A stretch of 48,053 bases of DNA from Crocinitomicaceae bacterium (GTDB lineage: Bacteria; Bacteroidota; Bacteroidia; Flavobacteriales_D; Crocinitomicaceae). Positions within the stretch are counted from its first letter, which is position 1. Every line of letters starts with the position of its first letter. This document shows positions 3,236 to 36,530 of the stretch, in pieces. The DNA lies in assembly GCA_025210175.1 (NCBI GenBank), contig JAOASF010000095.1, positions 1-48,053 on the forward strand. Direction: 5' to 3'. The notes beneath the pieces were generated by a model that saw only the letters and a list, made by a program, of their open reading frames with translations, was not told the DNA's origin and searched no databases. Both the position numbers and the translations under genes were made by a program.

Positions 3236-3422
3236 TGTAGGTGTATTTCTGAAACAAAACTGAAGAATTTCTTTTGATTTGAAAATAAGTCATCGGTAAA
3301 CGGAAAGGGTGAGTCGGCAAAGAGTTGATTTGCAAGGGATCGATCCCAATTCTAAAACCCAAAATGAAAAAAACGAAGCTTTTCCGTTCCTCGTCCTTAT
3401 CTTCGCTTACGAGTTTTGAATT

Positions 3423-27850: not shown

Positions 27851-30800
27851 ATGGAAGAGAATAATAAAAAAGGATTTGGGTTGTCTACCCTCTCCGTCAA
27901 TAACAGAAAGTTTGTTTTCCTCTTGGCCATCATTATCTTCTTCGGAGGATTGGGTGCCTATACTTCGATGCCAAAGGAGAACTTCCCAGAAATTCAAATT
28001 CCAGAGATTTATATTGGAATTGCCAAACCAGGAGCATCTCCTGAGTACATGTCCAAAAAGATTACTGAGTCTATCGAAAAAGAGGTAGGTGGAATTAAAT
28101 TGGTCGATGAAATCAACTCGAATTCAGTTCACGGTTACGCAACCATTCGGGTAAAATTTGATTTCAAAATGAAGGTGACAGAGGCTTTGCAAAAAGTGAA
28201 GGATGCAGTCGATAAGGCACGAACCAAAACCGACTTCCCTGATTTGCCAGTGGAGCCCAATATTTTTGAAATGGATCCGGCTCAAATGCCGATTCTGAAT
28301 ATCAACTTACGCGGAAACAATGCATCCCTTTTGAAGGATGTAGCGGAGGTTCTCGAAAAGAGAATTGAAGAATTGCCTGAAATTTCTGAAGTAGATATTA
28401 GAGGCGTTCAGGAACAAGAAATGCGCATCGATGTTGACCCGATTAAAGCACAAGCGGTGAACGTTTCCTTAGACGACATTGAAAATGCTGTGAATTCAGA
28501 GCATCAAAATATCCCTTCTGGAGAAATCTTGATGGACGGGGTTCGTAAAACACTCCGAATTGATGGTGAGTTTACCAATGCTTCTGAGTTGAAAAAGTTG
28601 ATCGTAAAAGATGATGATTACTTGCCTGTTCATTTAGAGGATATTGCCCATGTTTATTTTGGTAATTCAGATACAACCTCATTTGCTCGTGAGTTTGGAG
28701 AGCCTGTAGTGATGTTGGATGTAAAAAAACAAGGTGGTGAAAACTTGCTAGACGCTTCCGATAAAATCTTTGAAATTTTGGACGAGGCCCAAGTGGATGG
28801 AACGATTCCGCGAAGCATTTCAGTTTCTACGACCAATGATCAGTCGAACAACACTCGCGATATGGTTTCCAATTTGGAAAACTCCATTTTGTTTGGAATC
28901 ATGTTGGTAGTTGGCGTCTTGCTTTTCTTCCTTGGTTTGAGAAATGCCTTATTTGTTGGTGTGGCAATTCCACTATCCATGTTGATGTCCTTCCTGATTT
29001 TGGATGCAATGGATGTGTCCTTGAACGTAATGGTCTTGGTCTCACTCGTTTTGGCTTTGGGTATGGTGGTAGACAATGGAATCGTAATTGTCGAAAACAT
29101 TTACCGAAATCTGAGCAATGGTATGAAACAGAAAGATGCTGTCATCCAGGGGGTAGGAGAGGTCGCATGGCCGATTATTGCTTCTACTGCAACGACGTTG
29201 GCAGCCTTTGTTCCCTTGGCATTCTGGCCAGGCATTATGGGGGAATTCATGAAATACTTGCCAATTACCTTGATTATCGTTTTGGGTTCCTCCCTTTTCG
29301 TTGCCTTGGTTATTAACCCTGTATTAGCAGTGGCTTATATGAAATTGGAAGAAACAAATCCATCTAAAAAACGAGTTTTCACGATTGCATTGGTGATGTC
29401 TACCATTGGGGTGGTTGCTCTAGTTGCAGGTTTCACTTCCTTCGGTAACTTCCTCATCATCATGGCGATTTTTGGGTTGATAAACCTTTATGTTTTCCTT
29501 CCTGGATCACGAGTTTTCCAAGGTAAGGTATTGCCTAAATTGGAGAACTTCTACGAAGGTTTCTTGAAAAAAGCGTTGAAAGGAAATAATCCATTGGGTG
29601 TTTTGGCTGGAACAGTTGGCTTGTTCATAGTGGCAATTATTTTGATGGCGGTATTTCCCCCGAAGGTTGATTTCTTCCCAGTTAATGAGCCAAACTATGT
29701 GAACATTTTCATCTCTCATCCGATCGGAACGGATATCATGACAACCAATAAGACGACAGAAAAAGTTGAAAAGGTTATCAATGAAATCCTTCAACCTTAT
29801 TTGGCTGCGGATGCAAAATACCCGGTGGGCGACAGCAAGCGATTAATTCGATCCATTATCTCACAAGTAGGTGAAGGAACAAGCGACCCAGGTGAAGGAG
29901 TTGCAATGGGAAATACGCCGCATAAGGCACGTATCACAATTAACTTCACGGAGTTTCAAAACAGAGATGGGGTGAGTACCGGAGAGGTCCTATCGGAAAT
30001 TCAAGAGAAATTGAAAGGACGATTCACGGCGGATATTAATATTTCTGCTGAAAAAGAAGCGAATGGTCCGCCTCAAGGAGCGCCTATTAATATTGAAGTA
30101 ACAGGACGCGCTGAATACGCAACCTTAATTAAGGAAGCGGAAAATTTGAAAAACAAGTTAGAACGCTCAGGTGTGGCCGGTGTCGACAAATTGAAATTGA
30201 ATGTAGAATCCGATCGACCAGAAATTCCAATTGAAGTGGACAGAGACGCGGTTCGTAAGTTCAATGCATCAACCATGCAGGTTGGAATGGCTATACGTAA
30301 AGCCTTGTTGGGGCAAGATATTACAACCTACAGTTTGAATGAGGAATCGTATGATTTAGTGGTTCGCTTCGAAAAGAAAAGCCGCGAAAGCCTCGATGCC
30401 TTGTTGGATCAAAATCTAATTTTTAGAAACAACAAAGGTGTATTGATTAAAATTCCAATTCGCTCAGTTGTGAAACGTCCTGAAGAACAAAGTTCATTTA
30501 CGGCGGTTGTACGCAAGGACCAATTGCCATTAGTGGCAATCACCTCGGGGGTTCAAGAAGGATACAACGCCAATGAGGTGGTGGAGCAACTCAAAGAAAA
30601 GTTGAATGAATACGAAAAGAAGGGTGAGTTGGATGAATCCTTGTCGTATACTTTTACAGGACAGCAAGAAGAACAAGCCAAGGAGTTCGCATTTTTGAGC
30701 ACCGCATTGATGTTGGCCGTCTTCATGATTACCCTTATCATTGTCGCTCAGTTTAATTCCTACTCGGCACCATCCGTTATTATGCTAACTGTCGTATTAT

Positions 30801-31321
30801 CCTTGATCGGTGTATTGCTCGGTTTGTTGATTTCTCGTCAAAATTTCGTGATCCTCATGACCATGATTGGTATCATCTCCTTGGCAGGTGTGGTTGTAAA
30901 CAATGCGATTGTATTGATCGATTTTACAAACATGCTTCGCAAGAATAAACGAGCAGAGTTGAAGTTGTCTGAAGACGAACAGTTGCCATATGAGGAAATT
31001 GTTAAAGCAGCCGTTGAAGCGGGTAAAACTCGTTTGCGCCCCGTATTGCTCACAGCGATTACAACTATTTTGGGCTTGATCCCACTAGCGGTAGGTTTTA
31101 ACATCGACTTTTTTAGCTTCTTGTCAAGCTACGACGCCAAGATTTACATCGGTGGTGATAACAATATTTTCTTCTCACCTATGTCTTGGACTATTATTTA
31201 CGGTCTTACGTTTGCAACCTTCCTTACCTTGGTGGTCATCCCATCACTGTACTTGTTGACAGTTCGCTTGAAGTTTTGGTTCTACGACTTGATGGGTTGG
31301 AAAATAGTAAGCAATATTTAA
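27851..31321 (+). CDS. RND-family efflux transporter permease (AcrB/MMPL-like, HAE-type)
   Basis: 1156 residues, slightly longer than AcrB (about 1050). A first membrane helix (about 18-36) leads to a large porter domain, then helices around 345-560 with the proton-relay motif LALGMVVDNGIVIVENIYR (conserved Asp in TM4). A second porter half and a second helix set follow, with GVVVNNAIVLIDFTNMLR, GKTRLRPVLLTAITTILGLIPLA and a final helix FATFLTLVVIPSLYLL. The long loop before the last helices (FSFLSSYDAKIYIGGDNN) is typical of Bacteroidota members. It is the motor of the tripartite pump; drug versus metal specificity cannot be assigned. Confidence 0.95.
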   Translation: MEENNKKGFGLSTLSVNNRKFVFLLAIIIFFGGLGAYTSMPKENFPEIQIPEIYIGIAKPGASPEYMSKKITESIEKEVGGIKLVDEINSNSVHGYATIRVKFDFKMKVTEALQKVKDAVDKARTKTDFPDLPVEPNIFEMDPAQMPILNINLRGNNASLLKDVAEVLEKRIEELPEISEVDIRGVQEQEMRIDVDPIKAQAVNVSLDDIENAVNSEHQNIPSGEILMDGVRKTLRIDGEFTNASELKKLIVKDDDYLPVHLEDIAHVYFGNSDTTSFAREFGEPVVMLDVKKQGGENLLDASDKIFEILDEAQVDGTIPRSISVSTTNDQSNNTRDMVSNLENSILFGIMLVVGVLLFFLGLRNALFVGVAIPLSMLMSFLILDAMDVSLNVMVLVSLVLALGMVVDNGIVIVENIYRNLSNGMKQKDAVIQGVGEVAWPIIASTATTLAAFVPLAFWPGIMGEFMKYLPITLIIVLGSSLFVALVINPVLAVAYMKLEETNPSKKRVFTIALVMSTIGVVALVAGFTSFGNFLIIMAIFGLINLYVFLPGSRVFQGKVLPKLENFYEGFLKKALKGNNPLGVLAGTVGLFIVAIILMAVFPPKVDFFPVNEPNYVNIFISHPIGTDIMTTNKTTEKVEKVINEILQPYLAADAKYPVGDSKRLIRSIISQVGEGTSDPGEGVAMGNTPHKARITINFTEFQNRDGVSTGEVLSEIQEKLKGRFTADINISAEKEANGPPQGAPINIEVTGRAEYATLIKEAENLKNKLERSGVAGVDKLKLNVESDRPEIPIEVDRDAVRKFNASTMQVGMAIRKALLGQDITTYSLNEESYDLVVRFEKKSRESLDALLDQNLIFRNNKGVLIKIPIRSVVKRPEEQSSFTAVVRKDQLPLVAITSGVQEGYNANEVVEQLKEKLNEYEKKGELDESLSYTFTGQQEEQAKEFAFLSTALMLAVFMITLIIVAQFNSYSAPSVIMLTVVLSLIGVLLGLLISRQNFVILMTMIGIISLAGVVVNNAIVLIDFTNMLRKNKRAELKLSEDEQLPYEEIVKAAVEAGKTRLRPVLLTAITTILGLIPLAVGFNIDFFSFLSSYDAKIYIGGDNNIFFSPMSWTIIYGLTFATFLTLVVIPSLYLLTVRLKFWFYDLMGWKIVSNI

Positions 31322-31403: not shown

Positions 31404-31434
31404 CTTTTCAGAATAAAAAATATGCCTACATTTG
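31404..31434 (+). promoter_or_regulatory. Promoter of small RNA copy 1
   Basis: TACATTTG at 31427-31434 is an exact TAnnTTTG -7 element, identical to that of copy 2. The -33 position shows only CTTTT (31404-31408), so this copy has the weaker promoter. Confidence 0.5.
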
Positions 31435-31439
31435 TTATG

Positions 31440-31546
31440 TAAGAATAAGATAAAAAACGAAGATTTTTTAAAGATCTTTTTCAGTGAATAGTGGTTAGGT
31501 TAGGTTAGATTAAAAATGGCAGCTGCAAAGCTGCCATTTTCCTTTT
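31440..31546 (+). ncRNA. Candidate small RNA, tandem copy 1
   Basis: About 105 nt from the predicted start to the end of the U tract. A 5' A-rich part holds a short hairpin AAGAT/ATCTT (31460-31464 with 31474-31478). A single-stranded segment CAGTGAATAGTGG then TTAGGTTAGGTTAG (31482-31508) follows. A 12-bp terminator stem with a GCAA tetraloop (31513-31524 with 31529-31540) and TTTTCCTTTT ends it. No start codon with a sensible ORF is present. The segment before the terminator is identical to copy 2, 206 bp downstream. Confidence 0.65.
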
Positions 31547-31550
31547 AACC

Positions 31551-31594
31551 AAATTGTTAGGCGTAAGCCGTGAGGCAAAAAGTTTTAACAATTT
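31551..31594 (+). repeat. Inverted repeat between the two small RNA copies
   Basis: AAATTGTTA (31551-31559) and TAACAATTT (31586-31594) are perfect 9-bp arms around 26 nt that contain a small GGCGTAAGCC hairpin. It could be a structured RNA element or a protein-binding site just upstream of the copy 2 promoter. Confidence 0.35.
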
Positions 31595-31609
31595 ATTAGT
31601 AAATGAATG

Positions 31610-31640
31610 TTTGGTATATTAAGAAAATGTCATACATTTG
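31610..31640 (+). promoter_or_regulatory. Promoter of small RNA copy 2
   Basis: TTTG (31610-31613), 19-bp spacer, TACATTTG (31633-31640): this matches the Bacteroidota primary sigma factor consensus TTTG-N19-TAnnTTTG fully and is the best promoter in the window. Confidence 0.72.
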
Positions 31641-31645
31641 TTATG

Positions 31646-31746
31646 TAAGAATAAGAAATCAATAAAGATTAAAAATCTTTTTCAGTGAATAGTGGTTAGG
31701 TTAGGTTAGATTAAAAAGGCAGCTGCAAAGCTGCCTTTTTCCTTTT
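31646..31746 (+). ncRNA. Candidate small RNA, tandem copy 2
   Basis: About 100 nt. The 5' hairpin is AAAGATT/AATCTTT (31664-31670 with 31674-31680), stronger than in copy 1. It is followed by the shared CAGTGAATAGTGG/TTAGGTTAGGTTAG segment (31683-31709) and a 12-bp terminator stem (31713-31724 with 31729-31740) with the same GCAA tetraloop and a U-rich end. No ORF. From here to the small minus-strand gene at 31958 I see no convincing gene; a minus-strand TACTTTTG at 31855-31862 has no obvious product. Confidence 0.68.
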
Positions 31747-31957
31747 ACAGAAATGGTTTTTGGGATTTATTTTTCATTTTGTATCAGGTCGTAAAGACGA
31801 GATTTATCGACCTGGTTTTAGCAATGATTTTGCTTTGTTAAAAGATTTGGACTGCAAAAGTACAATTGCAAGCATGCCGATTTATTTCCATGTCGGAAGT
31901 GAAGCTATGACTCGAGATTTTCTTTTGGGAAGATGTATTTAGATATGTACCGACAAA

Positions 31958-32682: not shown

Positions 32683-32698
32683 TGGCACTTATTGTTCA

Positions 32699-32803
32699 AC
32701 TTATAAAGAAAGGTGGAGGGACAGGCCCTGTGAAACCTTGGCAACCTTCCGGTATTCGGAAAAGGTGCCAAATCCGATTCCGGCTTACCGGGAAAAGATA
32801 AGT
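32699..32803 (+). promoter_or_regulatory. SAM-I (S-box) riboswitch
   Basis: The conserved core is present in order: P1 5' strand ACTTAT (32699-32704), AGGTGGAGGGACAGGCCC, TGTGAAACCTTGGCAACC, a P3 stem-loop with CCGGTATTCGG, AAGGTGCCAAATCC (the pseudoknot-forming and SAM-contacting region), a P4 hairpin CCGGCTTACCGG, and P1 3' strand ATAAGT (32798-32803). S-adenosylmethionine binding should reduce expression of the methionine synthase genes that follow. The family and mechanism are established; the assignment is by consensus recognition. Confidence 0.93.
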
Positions 32804-32805
32804 TT

Positions 32806-32828
32806 GAGAAAGTTTCTCTCTTTTTTTG
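32806..32828 (+). terminator. Possible riboswitch expression platform
   Basis: GAGAA-AGT-TTCTC (32806-32818) is a short weak hairpin followed by TCTTTTTTTG. With P1 formed it could act as terminator. Its stem has only 5 bp, so the switch may instead work at translation; the metH start is 27 bp further. Confidence 0.35.
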
Positions 32829-32854
32829 TGGGTTGATGTTTACGATAGAGAGAA

Positions 32855-33865
32855 ATGAAGAAAATCCAAGACATAGCCAAAGAGCGAATACTCATTTTAG
32901 ATGGTGCCATGGGGACCATGATTCAACGTTATCAACTTACGGAAGAAGATTTTCGAAAGGGTTGGTTCGAAGATCATCCACATGCTCTTAAGGGGAACAA
33001 TGACCTTTTGTCGCTGACTCGTCCAGATGTCATCAAAGAAATTCACCGCGCTTATTTGGAAGCTGGAGCAGATATTTTGGAGACCAATACCTTTAGTGGA
33101 ACATGGGTTGCTCAGGAAGATTATCACCTCGCGAAGGCTGTTTACGATATCAATTTTCATTCGGCTAAACTGGCCAAGGAGGTATGTTCGGAGTTCAACG
33201 AGCTCACGCCAGAAAAGCCCCGTTTTGTAGCTGGATCGATGGGGCCTACAACCAAACTATCGTCCATGTCCCCAGATGTGAACGACCCGGGTTTCCGAGC
33301 CATAACCTTCGATGAATTGGTTGGTGCTTTTAAGGAACAGGTGGAAGGCCTCTTGGATGGGGGAGTTGATTTGCTTTTGGTGGAAACAGTGACGGATACT
33401 TTGAACGCCAAAGCTGCCTTGTTTGCGATTGACACTGTTTTCGAAGAAAGAGGGATGGAAGTGCCAATCATGGTTTCTGGAACCATCACAGACCAAAGTG
33501 GAAGGACTTTAACTGGTCAAACAACAGAGGCCTTTTTAATATCGATGCAGCACATGCCCTTGCTGAGTATTGGACTGAATTGCGCATTGGGTGCAGAAAT
33601 GATGAGACCCTATTTACAGGTGTTAAACAAGCGAAGTCCGTTTGGGGTAAGCGCTCACCCCAATGCAGGGTTGCCCAATGAATTTGGTCAGTATGACGAA
33701 ACGCCAGAAATGATGGTGGCTCAAATTAAAGTCTTCTTAGAGGAAGGACTGATCAATATTATTGGCGGTTGCTGCGGAACTACCCCAGAGCACATTCACG
33801 CCATAGCCGAATTGGCCAAAAATTATTCACCTAGAACGATAAACCGAATTGAAGAAAATGTCTAA
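32855..33865 (+). CDS. metH: Methionine synthase, homocysteine-binding half (split MetH)
   Basis: 336 residues, the N-terminal Hcy-binding barrel of cobalamin-dependent methionine synthase as a separate protein. The start motif [17 protein letters not shown] and NTFSGTW are typical. The zinc-binding cysteines are present: Cys in [13 protein letters not shown] and the CysCys pair in [13 protein letters not shown]. It activates homocysteine thiolate for methylation. Its stop overlaps the start of the second half by 8 bp (ATGTCTAA), and the operon is headed by a SAM-I riboswitch. A two-gene MetH is, to my knowledge, usual in Flavobacteriia and not a mutation here. Confidence 0.94.
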
Positions 33866-36530
33866 CGAATTGATCACGCTACAATTATCGGGGTTAGAAC
33901 CAGTATATGTTACCCCTGAGTCCAATTTTGTGAATGTAGGAGAGAGAACCAACGTTACGGGTTCTCGTGCCTTCTTGAGAATGATCAAGGAAAACGATTT
34001 CGAGGCAGCTCTTTCTGTGGCTCGTGACCAAGTAGAAGGTGGTGCGCAAATAATCGATATCAATATGGACGAAGGAATGATCGATGGCAAAGAAGCCATG
34101 GTGAAGTTCTTGAACCTTATTGCTGCGGAGCCTGATATCGCTCGTGTTCCGATCATGATTGACAGTTCAAAATGGGAAATAATTGAAGCTGGATTGAAGT
34201 GCATTCAAGGAAAAGGGATTGTCAACTCTATATCGTTGAAGGAGGGTGAGGAACTGTTTGTTGAGTATGCGAAAAAAATAAAGCGCTACGGAGCAGCGGT
34301 TATTGTGATGGCATTCGATGAAAACGGGCAAGCAGATTCGTATGAAAGAAGGATAGAGATTTGCGAAAGGTCGTACAGAATACTTGTGGATAAAGTGAAA
34401 TTTGACCCAAGAGACATCATTTTTGATCCCAATATTTTCCCTGTGGCCACAGGAATGGAGGAGCACAATAACAATGCTTTAGACTTTTTCCGTGCGACCA
34501 AATGGATTCGTGAAAATCTACCAGGAGCCCACGTTAGCGGTGGGGTTTCGAATGTGTCTTTTTCCTTTCGGGGAAACAACGTAGTTCGAGAAGCGATGCA
34601 CGCGGCCTTCTTGTACCATGGAATTCAGAATGGTATGGATATGGGGATTGTGAATCCGACTATGCTAGAGGTGTATGAAGAAGTTGACAAGGAGTTGATG
34701 GTGTATGTGGAGGATGTTTTGTTAAACCGAAGAGAGGACGCCACAGAAAGATTGTTGGAATACGCCGAAACGGTGAAAGGAGATGGGAAAAAGAAAGTAC
34801 AAGATCTATCTTGGAGAGAAGGACCAGTACAAGATCGCCTTACCCATTCTTTGGTTAAAGGAATTGTCGATTATATCGATGAGGATGTTGAAGAATGTAG
34901 ACAACTGTTTGATAGACCCATTCAGGTTATAGAAGGACCATTGATGGATGGGATGAACGTAGTGGGCGATTTGTTTGGAAGTGGGAAAATGTTCTTACCT
35001 CAAGTGGTAAAATCGGCTCGAGTAATGAAAAAGGCCGTTGCCTATCTGTTGCCCTTTATAGAAGCAGAAAAGGAAGGTGGGCGTAAAGCGGCAGGAAAGG
35101 TTCTGCTGGCAACCGTAAAAGGCGACGTTCATGATATCGGAAAAAACATCGTTGGGGTCGTACTCGGTTGCAATAATTACGAAGTTATCGATTTGGGGGT
35201 GATGGTACCCACCAATAAAATCATTGAAACCGCCATAGAAGAAAAAGTGGATATCATCGGCTTGAGTGGTCTAATTACTCCATCGCTCGACGAAATGGTT
35301 GATGTGGCGAAGGAAATGGAAAGAGCCGAATTGCAAATTCCTCTGCTTATTGGCGGTGCAACGACTTCCCGGGTCCATACGGCCGTTAAAATAGAAAAGA
35401 ACTTTTCGAAGGATCAAACCATTCACGTTTTGGATGCGTCGCGATCGGTAACGGTTGTGGAGTCACTTCTAGGAGGAAAAAAGAAAGATTTTGTAGAAAA
35501 AATAAAAACCGAATACCAAACCTTAAGGGAACATCACGAAAAGCACCGAGCGGCAAAAAGTCTCTTAAGTCTTGAAGCAGCACGAAAAAAGGCCCTTCAA
35601 TTGGATTTTACGGAAGAAACCATATGTGCACCAAAGCAACTGGGAACTCATGTGTTTGAAAGTTTCGACTTGAATGAAATTCGAGAATACATTGATTGGA
35701 CTCCCTTTTTCCAAACTTGGGAATTGCACGGAAAATACCCACGTATACTGCAAGATGAGGTAGTAGGGGTAGAGGCGCAACGCCTATTTGATGATGCTCA
35801 AAAAATGCTGGACCGAATGATTGCTCTAGAATGGATTGAAGCAAGGGCAGTGGTGGGCTTGTTTCCTGCAAACCGAGTTGGCGATGATATCGAAGTGTAT
35901 TCCGACCAAAGTAGATCACAAGTCATTCATACGATTCGGAGCATACGTCAGCAAACGGAGAAAACTCAGAGTGCCCCACAGTTGGCTCTGAGTGATTTTA
36001 TTGGTCCGAAAGAAGGTTTGGTAGATTACATCGGTGGTTTCGTTGTTTCCACTGGATTTGGTGTAGACGAGCAGGTTAAAAAATTCGAGGAGGATCATGA
36101 CGATTATAGTTCAATCATGGTGAAGGCTCTGGCTGACAGAATGGCCGAGGCATTTGCCGAATTGATGCACGAAAAAGTCCGTAAAGACCTTTGGGGGTAT
36201 GCAACCGAAGAGAACTTTGATAATGAAGCTCTAATTCAAGAGAAATACCGTGGAATTCGACCAGCTCCGGGATATCCAGCCTGTCCTGATCATACGGAAA
36301 AGATAGGTTTATTCGATTTGCTTGGAGCCACAGAGATTACCGGTGTAAGTCTTACTGAGAGTTTGGCTATGATGCCCGCGGCCTCCGTTTCGGGTTGGTA
36401 CTTTGCTCACCCACATGCTAAATATTTTGGGGTAGGGAAGATCAGTATGGATCAAGTGGAAGATTTGGCCAAAAGAAACGGCAGATCAACTGAAGAAATG
36501 GAACGTTGGTTGAGTAGTATTATTAACTAA
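33858..36530 (+). CDS. metH: Methionine synthase, folate/cobalamin/activation half (split MetH)
   Basis: 890 residues from ATG 33858 (an upstream TTG in frame is less likely). The pterin-binding barrel opens with [20 protein letters not shown] and [16 protein letters not shown]. The cobalamin cap helices (about 310-400) follow, then the B12 Rossmann domain with [20 protein letters not shown], whose His is the lower cobalt ligand, plus [13 protein letters not shown]. The C-terminal AdoMet activation domain has [15 protein letters not shown] and [13 protein letters not shown]. It transfers methyl from 5-methyltetrahydrofolate to homocysteine held by the partner protein. No metF is adjacent downstream. 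Confidence 0.95.

Follow-up and report, generated by a model that had tools for sequence, protein, structure and literature searches.

The window, i.e. the complete stretch of 48,053 nt of contig JAOASF010000095.1 (Crocinitomicaceae bacterium) that was analysed, harbours two short tandem units, here called the twin, which are flanked by the gene of an AcrB-type RND efflux pump upstream (27851-31321, + strand; PF00873, 554.8 bits) and, on the other side, by a region with a diacylglycerol kinase, a SAM riboswitch and metH. Both units lie on the + strand at a spacing of 201 bp and share an exact repeat of 43 nt, ATCTTTTTCAGTGAATAGTGGTTAGGTTAGGTTAGATTAAAAA, which starts at 31474 and at 31675 according to direct reading and repeat measurement; repeats in 300 shuffled versions of the twin region reached 13 nt at most. 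A sequence-only reading of this DNA had described tandem copies 206 bp apart with an identical segment of about 37 nt; the arrangement and the identity stand, and both lengths are corrected by our measurements. It had also stated that neither copy holds an ORF, and no ORF of more than 28 codons was found within the twin unit. Window positions 32698-36530 (+ strand), in the flanking region, comprise a SAM-I riboswitch (96.3 bits) and, behind it, a methionine synthase that is split over a pair of overlapping genes: 32855-33865 for the homocysteine S-methyltransferase part, 33849-36530 for the pterin/B12/activation part.

All elements of the twin are on the + strand. Copy 1 is preceded by the -7 box TACATTTG (31427-31434) without a good TTTG -33 box, and the predicted transcript of ~105 nt (31441-31547) has its start placed from this box and its end from the terminator. 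It comprises a 5' hairpin of 9 bp (31459-31479, -4.8 kcal/mol), the 43-nt block (31474-31516) with the invariant C-free core AGTGAATAGTGGTTAGGTTAGGTTAG and its three GGTTA-type repeats (31483-31508), and an intrinsic terminator of 12 bp with a GCAA loop and a T-rich tail (31513-31547). Copy 2 carries the full promoter TTTG-N19-TACATTTG (31610-31640), a predicted transcript of ~100 nt (31647-31748), a 5' hairpin of 7 bp (31664-31680, -2.4 kcal/mol), the 43-nt block (31675-31717), the C-free core (31684-31709) and a terminator that again has 12 bp, a GCAA loop and a T-rich tail (31713-31748). The -7 box is of the TAnnTTTG type and the promoter is complete in copy 2 only, just as had been claimed; the segment TACATTTGTTATGTAAGAATAAGA, common to the -7 regions of both copies, is an addition to that description. 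The core tract includes the UUAGG repeats plus an upstream part, GUGAAUAGUG being another named segment of it. The two terminators fold at -18.4 (copy 1) and -18.0 kcal/mol (copy 2), with z-scores of -4.8 and -5.3, and the reported swap, a T-A pair in one and an A-T pair in the other above GGC, was confirmed. The 5' hairpins exist as proposed, although each is weak on its own (z -0.8). A covariance model matches copy 1 at 31428-31549 with 88.5 bits and copy 2 at 31634-31749 with 96.9 bits, both copies having been part of its training set.

Relatives were fetched via the efflux gene. Downstream of the efflux pump orthologue, no fewer than 17 of them (record titles Crocinitomicaceae, Fluviicola, Flavobacteriales or Bacteroidetes) carry the sRNA, with CTTTTTCAGTGAATAGTGGTTAGGTTAGGTTA or a core nearly identical to it and, behind the core, a terminator whose sequence diverges. 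A search with a 21-nt pattern and up to 2 mismatches (1 hit for the reversed-pattern control in the family genomes) recovered the core CAGTGAATAGTGGTTAGGTTA from 78 of the 200 family genomes, representing 9 of 24 genera and mostly as an exact match; it had matches in 0 of 383 Bacteroidia genomes outside the family (395 were drawn from the class, with matches only in the same family). We inspected 77 distinct close matches, nearly all of which are followed by a terminator, and aligned the 64 with a 5' context of this first type. Across these copies 20 contiguous columns are invariant and the flanks drift. The terminator varies in sequence and keeps its pairing, with two-sided changes at 4 pairs in one clade alignment. 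The sequence of the 5' hairpin differs between clades, yet the arm stays structured (mean z against shuffles -1.5, 67% of the 64 copies below -1), so the hairpins become convincing only when the 64 copies are considered together; a consensus structure computed automatically from the complete alignment models the terminator alone, since the 5' hairpin is not alignable between clades. A mean unpaired probability of 0.53 over the same copies gives moderate support to the earlier view that the TTAGG tract is unpaired. The kind of covariance search that had been suggested, here with a model built from this alignment, exceeds 60 bits in this family only, the best score outside being 33 bits. The first proposal, stand-alone sRNA genes that form a paralogous pair, is thus supported by a core and a pairing terminator that are conserved in dozens of related genomes.

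Weaker matches of the covariance model led to a sister type of the form TAnnTTTG-n4-GATTTAGGTGGTTAGGTTAGGTTGATTAG-terminator with the core GATTTAGGTGGTTAGGTTAGG. This 21-nt core is almost always exact; 46 of 200 family genomes, from 9 of 24 genera, carry it, and a single genome can have as many as 9 copies (search control: 2 hits). Counted over two tables, about 103 of the 200 family genomes carry either type; the family is larger than the two genes of the sequence-only reading. In 23 of 42 distinct copies a -7 box is located no more than 10 nt from the sister core; it nearly always ends 4 nt upstream, which would give a predicted ~60-nt RNA with the core at its 5' end. In the genome under study, contig C165 bears a tandem triplet of the sister type at 3300, 3504 and 3791 (L334 1601, 1805, 2092) in a gap of ~1.9 kb between two ORFs, so twin and triplet together make at least five family members. 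The element GTGGTTAGGTTAGGTT is common to both types, and both cores are C-free downstream of a leading CAG. Related forms are AAAAGGTAGGTTAGGTTAGGTTAG (L329, L330) and TTTTTCATAAGTAGTAGTTTAGGTTAGG (L331, L341), and another bacterial family (f24, genus g54) has AGTTTAGTTAAGTTTAGTTAGGTTAGGTTAG plus a terminator in five genomes (L348-L352, near position 1500). These f24 UUAG-repeat sRNAs (L348, L349, L350, L351, L352) have a stem at the 5' end and a terminator of the GGATGCCCGTCC type.

Viral contigs, too, bear exact cores of both types together with terminators. One copy lies on the - strand of a contig with a terminase gene (L174 7754-7778), one on a contig with a portal gene (L424 5936) and one on the - strand with a tRNA-like sequence within ~55 nt after it (L425 1773-1789); the others are at L423 9323 and L426 1243.

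A known identity was not recovered for the twin. The Rfam search of the window returned only the SAM riboswitch and a tRNA at the gathering score, and no credible family for the twin up to E = 10. Flavo-1 RNA occurs in Flavobacteria and had been named as a possible known motif; it is absent from the matches of this stretch up to E = 10, and neither it nor another Rfam family accounts for the pair at threshold. The open-licence literature yielded no earlier description of the family. Rfp18 of Flavobacterium psychrophilum is likewise a conserved flavobacterial intergenic sRNA, described as structured with at least three stem-loops and predicted protease targets (PMC9723704); this description would set it apart, as it is conserved in the genus Flavobacterium and the twin core is absent from all sampled genomes outside its own family.

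The general features of trans-encoded sRNAs, i.e. an own promoter, no ORF, an intrinsic terminator and a conserved core, are present, and the twin units are almost certainly genuine small-RNA genes. We consider it probable (roughly 60%) that both belong to a new, multicopy family of trans-encoded sRNAs in Crocinitomicaceae and combine an antisense seed with a landing site for an RRM protein. A new family is indicated because the core is invariant amid drifting flanks, is restricted to the family and is followed by a terminator that keeps its pairing, and because the sister type is multicopy and forms a triplet in the same genome, and copies occur on phage contigs, as reported for FopS. Judging from the sequence, each unit would be transcribed from a Bacteroidota housekeeping-type promoter to its intrinsic terminator and would yield a free RNA, and additional copies may provide more dosage and separate transcriptional control. 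The active part would be the tract built from G, U and A only; it reads GUGAAUAGUGGUUAGGUUAGGUUA in the twin, whereas the sister type has GAUUUAGGUGGUUAGGUUAGG. By analogy to GibS and FopS this tract is most likely an extended seed: it would anneal to several mRNAs in A/C-rich 5' regions and may block the translation start as in Bacteroides, and the UUAGG repeats are probably the landing site for one of two RRM-domain proteins.

The precedent for this mechanism comes from GibS and FopS, which pair with regions around translation starts and are associated with the RRM protein RbpB (PMC11697453, PMC7366714); together with the two RRM_1 proteins of the genome itself it underlies our preference. 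One of these has 159 aa and a glycine-rich tail (L176:1492-1971), the other 232 aa and an acidic tail (L175), and both are related in sequence to eukaryotic RRM proteins including hnRNP A1. FopS (14 copies in Bacteroides thetaiotaomicron) and GibS are the closest known analogue of the twin; they have in common with it multicopy paralogues, a C-poor extended single-stranded tract, an intrinsic terminator, RRM proteins in the cell, an occurrence on phages (as reported for FopS) and a housekeeping promoter of the sigma-ABfr type, of which twin copy 1 lacks the TTTG half.

The antisense part of this reading is weakened by the target searches, which gave no candidate that holds across genomes. The CCTAA-type targets proposed earlier were not supported: an antisense 14-mer with up to 1 mismatch matched outside the family of sRNAs only at control level in 44 carrier genomes, matches of 13-14 nt were at control level with no conserved antisense site of 13-16 nt, and further exact matches that we inspected were mostly sense copies, otherwise undefined or coding sequence. 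A scan with a sister-type 16-mer in 26 genomes found essentially the sRNAs themselves. Duplex energies at 914 translation starts of one carrier relative (G021, ~1.1 Mb) equalled those of dinucleotide-shuffled cores, and k-mer counts at the same starts showed a small excess of TAACCAC/ACCACTAT. The neighbouring efflux pump, metH and rnhA genes were tried as targets and paired no better than shuffles. In G021 a dnaA-like leader (L269, + strand ORF, offset 10681) holds TAACCACTAA 29 nt before the start codon; being complementary to part of the core, it is a weak, single-genome candidate target. The moderate accessibility of the core and an exact invariance over 17-21 nt, more than an antisense seed usually needs, further weaken the antisense reading.

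An invariant tract without detectable complementary partners also fits recognition by a protein, which makes a decoy or platform like CsrB/RsmY a serious rival, possible if on balance doubtful: the UUAGG repeats would titrate an RRM protein or another RNA-binding protein, and antisense targets would not exist. The core is letter-invariant and repeat-like, the family is multicopy and tandem, and the two RRM proteins at hand are akin to hnRNP A1; RRMs of the hnRNP A1/D type favour UAGG/UUAG. RbpB binds single-stranded parts of FopS (PMC11697453). Against a plain decoy, the core segment ahead of the repeats (GUGAAUA or GAUUUAG) is equally invariant and would be needless for simple repeat binding, and each RNA has only two to three repeats, some copies (L019, L125) being one GGUUA short. 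The short repeated motif and the multicopy habit are shared with CsrB/RsmY-type decoys; those present GGA in hairpin loops, whereas the twin has UUAGG/GGUUA repeats in a linear tract, and the hallmark of many GGA motifs in hairpin loops was not found in the twin core. A G-quadruplex formed by the GG repeats is ruled out by copies with only two GG tracts (L019). As a wider and speculative conjecture, to which we give a rather low chance, the UUAG(G)-repeat RNAs (twin, sister type, f24 and the FopS-like sRNAs described below) would form one superfamily across Bacteroidota that docks or titrates RRM proteins, in the manner of Hfq or CsrA in a phylum without Hfq and CsrA, with phage copies that interfere with or exploit this system.

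Could the twin instead be a divergent true member of FopS/GibS? We regard this as improbable. The Rfam model of FopS (RF04319) does align over the entire length, the order UUUUUCA...UUAG...AGGUUA-terminator is held in common, the multicopy habit is alike and 'type 3' sRNAs of the same family seem to stand in between (0/1000 mononucleotide shuffles for L331 against BTnc231). The score, however, is 22.2 bits (E 0.55) against a gathering score of 56, and the model has no match in the twin's genome at E 0.1. When the twin was tested for the R1-type core GUGUUUUUCAUgGUAUUAGAUUUAAGGUUA of FopS, a profile built from 13 FopS-like cores missed it, and 32 of 1000 shuffles reach the twin-to-FopS alignment score. 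The FopS core UUUUUCAUGGUAUUAGAUUUAAGGUUA includes the complement of AUGAAAAA and the twin core has UUUUUCAG and GUGAAUAGUGGUUAGG instead; unlike FopS, the twin also bears a 5' hairpin ahead of the core. At best the twin works like FopS, and a distant common ancestry of the two through intermediate forms is conceivable. BTnc231 (RF04180) shares with the twin the UUUUUUUCA lead-in, UUAG/AGGUUA elements and a terminator, yet the match scores 25.6 bits where the gathering score is 80.4, and several model pairs are broken in it. Among 198 genomes scanned from the class, FopS reached threshold in only five, from two families. Sub-threshold FopS-like sRNAs with TTTTTTCATAGT...TTTAGGTTA plus terminator, near position 1500 (L369, L371, L374, L375, L376, L382, L389), span several Bacteroidia families beyond those; their UUUUUCAU, the complement of AUGAAAAA, suggests pairing to start codons.

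That core and terminator act only in cis, as a termination or 3'-end element of upstream genes without a free RNA, is very unlikely. A terminator does follow nearly all copies, the twin sits behind the efflux pump gene, and some copies without a recognisable promoter lie close behind a gene (L099, L137). Most copies, on the other hand, have their own TAnnTTTG box (40-60 nt upstream of the core in most relatives with the first type, 4 nt in the sister type), tandem arrays have a promoter-like box for each member (L326, L334 and the window), and the genes upstream of the core depend on the clade and are often on the opposite strand. The sRNA lies 3' of the efflux pump in some clades and between rnhA and the metH 3' end in others, a variation which favours an independent gene over part of one operon. 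A DNA element without RNA function (a repeated protein-binding, mobile or integration-type sequence) would suit short, multicopy, invariant sequences in phage contigs and is scarcely credible given the strand-asymmetric order of promoter, core and hairpin with T tail, hairpins that vary in sequence with their pairing kept, and mobile-element hallmarks that were not seen.

To our knowledge, the Bacteroidota other than Bacteroides have very few known trans-acting sRNAs. The twin family allows the FopS/RbpB network to be compared with an independent case and bears on the question of RNA-binding partners in Bacteroidota. Its exact C-free core, with at least five members here, up to nine sister copies elsewhere, tandem arrays and phage members, provides a testable handle: a single short probe (e.g. 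against CCTAACCTAACCAC) or a single pull-down would cover the whole family.

Two minor observations concern the surroundings of individual copies. Some cores, in tandem or single copies, are preceded by a TTTGGCACrTTTTTTCG-like sequence in place of TAnnTTTG (L163 4642-5100, L173 ~5043, L209 ~2055, L210 4838 and 5046); it looks sigma-54-like, with a spacing off the usual consensus. At L109 2599-2817 a row of near-identical inverted repeats, GCCCACCT...AGGTGGGC, gives chance matches to Rfam microRNAs and is possibly a small repeat element.
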